From Nevskia soli (GTDB taxonomy: Bacteria; Pseudomonadota; Gammaproteobacteria; Nevskiales; Nevskiaceae), in contig JAMFRN010000257.1 in the NCBI GenBank assembly GCA_026224805.1, positions 1 to 34,996 on the forward strand: a DNA stretch of 34,996 nucleotides. Reading direction: 5' to 3'. Within the stretch, counting starts at the first letter, position 1. Every line of letters begins with the position of its first letter. Below are positions 1 to 416 of the stretch, one piece after another. Under the pieces are notes generated by a model, which saw nothing but the letters and a program-made list of their open reading frames with translations, made no database searches and was not told the DNA's origin. The translations under genes and the position numbers were made by a program.

Positions 1-416
1 GCGAGCCGACGCCGTAAGAGCTGGCCGTGAAGATGGAGATGCCGTAAGACATGGTTCGCAAGTTGCTTAAAATCGCCAAGGAACCGATCTCGATGGAGAC
101 GCCGATCGGCGACGACGAGGATTCCCACCTCGGCGATTTCATCGAGGACGGCCTCGCCGTGTCGCCGCTGGAGTCGGCCACTTCGCAGTCGCTGGCCGAA
201 GCGACCCACCAGATTCTCGCCAGCCTGACGCCGCGCGAGGCCAAGGTGCTGCGCATGCGCTTCGGCATCGACATGAACACCGACCACACCCTGGAAGAGG
301 TCGGCAAGCAGTTCGATGTGACGCGCGAGCGCATCCGCCAGATCGAGGCGAAGGCACTGCGCAAGCTGCGCCACCCGAGCCGGGCGAACTATCTGCGCTC
401 GTTCCTCGACGAATGA
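1..416 (+). pseudogene. rpoD: RNA polymerase sigma-70 factor RpoD, C-terminal part, with two in-frame TAA codons
   Basis: This is the 3' end of the primary sigma factor gene, truncated by the window start. Readable protein begins at base 3 with EPTP, then a stop (TAA, 15-17), ELAVKMEMP, a second stop (TAA, 45-47), then an unbroken frame from 48 to the TGA at 414-416. The open part carries the end of region 3, the region 4.1 motif [16 protein letters not shown] and the region 4.2 helix-turn-helix [18 protein letters not shown] that contacts the -35 element, ending in RSFLDE. In the RpoD family both stop positions are glutamate (TPEEL and MPED), so each is exactly one base (GAA to TAA) from the expected codon. 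RpoD is essential, so loss in the living cell is implausible; an error in the consensus is likelier. Identity is very secure; only the status of the two codons is in doubt. An ATG at 51 could only give a meaningless fragment. Confidence 0.93.

Follow-up and report, generated by a model that had tools for sequence, protein, structure and literature searches.

Do the two TAA codons that interrupt rpoD at the very beginning of this sequence belong to the organism, or did they arise in the assembly? The window analysed here is the whole of contig C139 (G000:C139:1-34996, contig 34,996 bases long), and the draft genome that it comes from, G000, has 3,953,292 bases (3.95 Mb) in 267 contigs and is 84% complete and 1.9% contaminated. 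Since the window is an entire contig, its base 1 is the contig end, and it was within rpoD that the assembly came to a halt. What the window has of the gene, its 3' part truncated by the contig start, was recognised from its translation, Pfam domains, relatives and gene order, and lies on the plus strand at 3-416, with its natural stop TGA at 414-416. Read from base 3, the frame translates as EPTP*ELAVKMEMP*DMVRK..., with TAA at 15-17 and 45-47, and the downstream part of 3-416 is RpoD, with the Pfam domains Sigma70_r3 and Sigma70_r4 (regions 3 and 4). In 15 of the 17 same-genus genomes searched there is a protein that matches the window RpoD with 96-99% identity, and the best match in the remaining two is 81% in G008 and 52% in G009. 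The two TAA codons are most likely sequence errors and not biology, and RpoD in the cell is most likely uninterrupted.

The original prediction of TAA at both places in the rpoD frame was confirmed by the translation and by an alignment of 101 rpoD rows. These rows comprise 19 relatives from the genome search, two paralogues (L192 and L195) and 80 further rows, which rank best among at least 591 relatives in the genome collection. They hold 100 distinct sequences and are not independent, L019 and L198 being one genome, L195 G000's own C251 and L192 a paralogue in G006. The comparison with the rpoD of the closest genomes, proposed along with the prediction, gave sense codons in the relatives at both places where the window has TAA: at 15-17 Glu in 97 of the 101 rows and Asp in the other 4, and at 45-47 Glu in all 101. 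Over the aligned stretch only one of the other rows has a stop, L251, which ends naturally one codon before the window does. Two further purine-to-T changes, which were absent from the prediction, were seen at the invariant bases 52 and 63. The codon at 51-53 is ATG (Met) in the window and Lys in all 101 rows, base 52 being A in every row, and the codon at 63-65 is TTG (Leu), where 99 rows have Val and 2 have Ala, base 63 being G throughout. Bases 15, 45, 52 and 63 are all invariant in the 101 rows and all T in the window, so that E becomes a stop at the first two, K becomes M at the third and V becomes L at the fourth. It had also been claimed that both stops result from the same G-to-T change in a shared nonamer. 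The stops are there at both sites, but at the second the shared lesion, GCCGGAAGA to GCCGTAAGA, is only presumed, because the two nearest genomes (G006 and G001) read CCC GAG there and not CCG GAA.

The changes are confined to the outermost part of the contig. Compared with the 101 rows there is no window-only base at 73-413, and when each of the 102 rows was left out in turn, the window had the most changes at otherwise invariant bases, 4, as compared to none in 89 rows, one in 9 and two in 3. Against the 15 same-genus rows the window has 7 unique bases in the 72 positions of 1-72 and 0 in the 341 positions of 73-413 (Fisher p 4e-6, a value that is too favourable as the boundary at 72 was chosen after the cluster had been seen). 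Window-specific change is densest in two 30-base runs of the aligned window, and one of them, which starts at 44, sits in this highly conserved gene. Judged by eye, there is no comparable cluster at the right end of the window.

To understand why the contig ends here it is necessary to consider the other copies of the gene. The G000 bin contains four rpoD pieces, on C173, C179, C251 and C139, every one of them reaching a contig end, and these represent at least three rpoD-like genes. C173 has rpoD codons 1 to 431, up to the last bases of the contig (match to 11093 of 11095), as well as dnaG (named by eye). The second rpoD-like gene is cut by the start of C179 and has a spermidine-synthase-like gene (named by eye) as its neighbour, and a third, divergent rpoD-like gene, whose protein ends NHLRSFVVE, is cut by the start of C251. 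Likely counterparts of the spermidine-synthase-like-linked gene and of the divergent gene were also seen in G006, on contigs C106 and C263.

The gene order in same-genus genomes, together with the match to G006, suggests that the window piece belongs, as the 3' part, to the housekeeping rpoD that is linked to dnaG. dnaG lies upstream of rpoD in 8 of 8 same-genus stretches, from eight genomes, and a cytochrome c gene is next in 7 of the 8; the window has its cytochrome c gene at 8448-9287, past the moxR cluster. The G006 rpoD that shares this 3' end (99%) is 95.8% identical to the C173 piece in its 5' part, and the cytochrome c gene then follows. The gap between C173 and C139 would be about 140 bases, a size estimated from L280. 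We also considered the window rpoD as a spare copy, which was ruled out by this gene order, dnaG in 8 of 8 stretches and the cytochrome c gene in 7 of 8, the latter gene being present in the window. The cluster at 960-8111, which begins with moxR and DUF58, separates rpoD from the cytochrome c gene. These two genes are direct neighbours, rpoD first, in G006 (C75) and in 7 of eight other same-genus stretches, and in G001 (C141) moxR is downstream of rpoD too.

Assemblies often break where similar gene copies share stretches, and the rpoD pieces offer a reason for such a break. The overlap of C173 with C179 covers 243 bases at 90% identity, and C251 matches C173 at 87% and C179 at 84% in its overlaps with them. 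An exact stretch of 67 bases is common to the final 300 bases of C173 and the first 300 of C179, and one of 59 bases to the first 420 of C139 and the first 760 of C251. It is likely that rpoD-like copies of 84-90% identity, which agree exactly over as many as 67 bases, cause the contigs to break in rpoD, and that the outermost 70 bases or so of C139 then come to hold several false bases, namely the four purine-to-T changes at invariant positions. Few or mis-assigned reads could be the cause, possibly together with oxidised guanines. The two TAA codons are most likely wrong or minority bases, an error of the consensus or of the assembly where a contig ends in a tangle. It is directly established which gene this is, that the changes cluster at the contig end and that each of the four rpoD pieces breaks off at a contig end; that the TAA bases are errors and not true alleles is what we infer, and likewise their cause.

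The ends of the other rpoD pieces were compared with 97 reference rows, kept from 101 loci supplied. C173 and C251 each have one base that is unseen in the references and changes the protein, so that LQFLDL, found in all 97 rows, becomes LQVLDL in C173 and LLFLDL in C251, 85 and 106 bases from the end. The support from these two termini is modest, because the rpoD end of C179 is clean, with no unseen base, and because 22 of the 97 reference rows also have at least one unique base over the compared terminal region. Not all contig ends are faulty, as the ABC-transporter domains at C114:9-437 and C19:3-449 are without stops. Short repeats were also observed in the window, at 477-554, 8143-8352, 10943-11027, 14073-14153 and 19690-19771. 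They occur on many contigs of G000 and of its relatives, several of them matching in both orientations, and in this they resemble REP-type elements.

The presence of at least two more rpoD-like genes in the bin, 412 open codons on C179 and an open 3' part on C251, could also be taken to mean that the nonsense alleles are real, in all or part of the population. The dnaG-linked rpoD would then have been recently inactivated, another rpoD-like gene supplying the sigma factor, or the contig end would follow a minor strain. We find this unlikely. Four changes of invariant bases in 49 bases, all to T and with none at 73-413, are unlike neutral decay, and they sit exactly at the contig end. Furthermore, the rest of rpoD is strongly conserved, which implies that any loss must be very recent. 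The codon differences at 75-413 are 25 synonymous and 0 replacement against G006, and 24 and 1 against G001, so this part of the gene shows no sign of the relaxed constraint of a pseudogene, although a very recent loss would leave no trace. The stronger proposal, that the housekeeping rpoD is truly dead and that the C179 or C251 gene is now the primary sigma factor, a recent turnover, seems quite improbable. Real stops would mean that the main sigma factor has been replaced by a duplicate.

Two more genes on the same contig have stops that are absent in relatives, an observation in favour of real alleles. The moxR ATPase gene, at 960-1964 on the plus strand, has TAG at 1473-1475, after CCG, where G001, G006 and G008 have GAG. 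The DUF4197 gene, at 21053-21724 on the minus strand, has TAG at 21395-21397, where G006 and G008 have CAG and G001 is not aligned. The original prediction had neither of these TAG codons, nor the fact that base 1 is the contig end. The moxR stop is probably either recent or false, because both halves of the gene are conserved, with 15 synonymous changes, 3 replacements and 1 stop in the window lineage. An error at the terminus alone does not account for it, as it lies 1.5 kb inside the contig in the same context of TAR following CCG.

It was also possible to observe stops in the relatives where the window has a sense codon, in G008 at 984 and 30224 and in G006 at 7623, 7914 and 17508. Only at 17508 do other relatives agree with the window; G006 has TAG there, and the window, G001 and G008 have CAG. 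In 40 other stretches of G000, 44 candidates for interior stops (21 + 23) were read by eye, and most of them look like gene junctions. One, L178:13049 on the minus strand (G000:C29), is an in-frame TAA in a phosphotransferase-family-like gene (QVDGWC*RFEKARTDD) and, by eye, looks like a true interior stop; a further candidate, L178:11377, was ambiguous by eye. The same codon scoring of ten stretches each gave 10 candidates in G006 and 3 in G001.

All three GAR-to-TAR changes, two in rpoD and one in moxR, follow CCG, which precedes only 24 of the 580 GAR codons of the window (about 4%). The chance of three such contexts is about 7e-5, if the changes are independent and if the second rpoD site was CCG-GAR. 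Moreover, at the aligned GCCGGA sites, as reconstructed from relatives, 2 of 78 have changed G>T (15 and 1473), as compared to G>T or C>A at 105 of 21,029 G/C sites. This could suggest that GCCGGAR is subject to systematic errors across the whole genome, from base calling or from DNA damage, for instance at a modified base or an oxidised guanine, and oxidative G>T sequencing artefacts with a context preference have been described (PMC12390751). The contexts quoted from that paper are CGG and GGC, and the changed G is here in GGA. Within the window 37 GCCGGAR sites are intact, as are 267 CCG-GAR codon pairs in the 40 other G000 stretches, a sample of 461,571 of the 3,953,292 bases (about 12%). 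No interior CCG-TAR was recognised in these 461,571 bases; four in-frame cases of CCG followed by TAR (L027:3453, L040:6842, L040:6632 and L177:2053) were by eye gene ends or a stop-filled frame.

The share of G>T plus C>A across the window is not raised either. It is 58 of 605 window-specific changes, and 92 of 785, 135 of 1106 and 141 of 1518 in the three relatives, counted over 22,552 columns with all three relatives aligned, of which almost none fall in bases 1-1000. A G>T excess along the whole contig was rejected, the spectrum of the window resembling those of the relatives in columns that barely touch 1-1000. The A to T change at 52 is moreover left unaccounted for, and an error at GCCGGAR genome-wide is very improbable. 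Because the 267 CCG-GAR pairs are intact and the 40 stretches contain no interior CCG-TAR, the error looks local, a failure where a contig ends within a gene family of several copies, and not like one that follows the motif. Of the systematic consensus error suggested earlier, the error itself, in the consensus or the assembly, holds as the best reading, but not its dependence on the motif, with the CCG-GAR pairs intact and G>T not raised.

The three in-frame TAR codons, at conserved Glu positions and after CCG, might instead be read as glutamate, by readthrough or by a reassignment of TAA and TAG. The gene with an RF-1 domain on C121 is an intact ORF of 360 aa, which we take to be RF1 from its PAT motif, and there is no indication that it is lost or altered. 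No TTA, CTA or TCA anticodon was found among the 27 tRNAs identified in the 84% complete genome, a set that is incomplete, without tRNAs for Trp, Lys, His, Phe, Ile and Pro; the search for a suppressor tRNA, as the prediction advised, was thus negative within this set. Both codons also end ordinary genes: of 228 ORFs of at least 250 codons in the 40 G000 stretches, 33 end with TAA and 66 with TAG. In the sampled stretches TAA and TAG were neither dropped as gene ends nor found inside genes as a genome-wide pattern, and none of 39 ABC-transporter domains in G000 contains a stop. Together with the intact CCG-GAR pairs this argues against readthrough, which also leaves the K to M and V to L changes beside the stops unaccounted for. 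Readthrough had already been rated as much less likely than an error, and we agree; with an intact RF1-like gene and with TAA and TAG ending ordinary genes it is extremely improbable.

We return to an error at the contig end as the preferred reading, and in-frame stops in an essential gene should be met with some caution: the distance to the contig end and the presence of similar gene copies need to be checked first. Stop-codon reassignment and suppressor tRNAs are known systems, and the window resembles them in having in-frame stops at conserved Glu codons; it differs from them in the presence of an RF1-like gene, in that no suppressor anticodon was found, in the use of TAA and TAG as normal gene ends and in the lack of a pattern in the sampled genome. 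Errors at contig ends and repeat boundaries are known in fragmented drafts of the metagenome-assembled type. The rpoD changes are like these in that they cluster in the terminal 70 bases or so and that the gene belongs to a family with similar copies, and the moxR stop at 1473, in the same context and 1.5 kb inside the contig, is unlike them. Compared to the 8-oxoguanine artefacts of PMC12390751, one of the changes is A>T, and the contexts are GGA or GGT as compared to the CGG and GGC quoted from that paper, but at three of the four invariant bases the change is, like those artefacts, G>T on the strand read.
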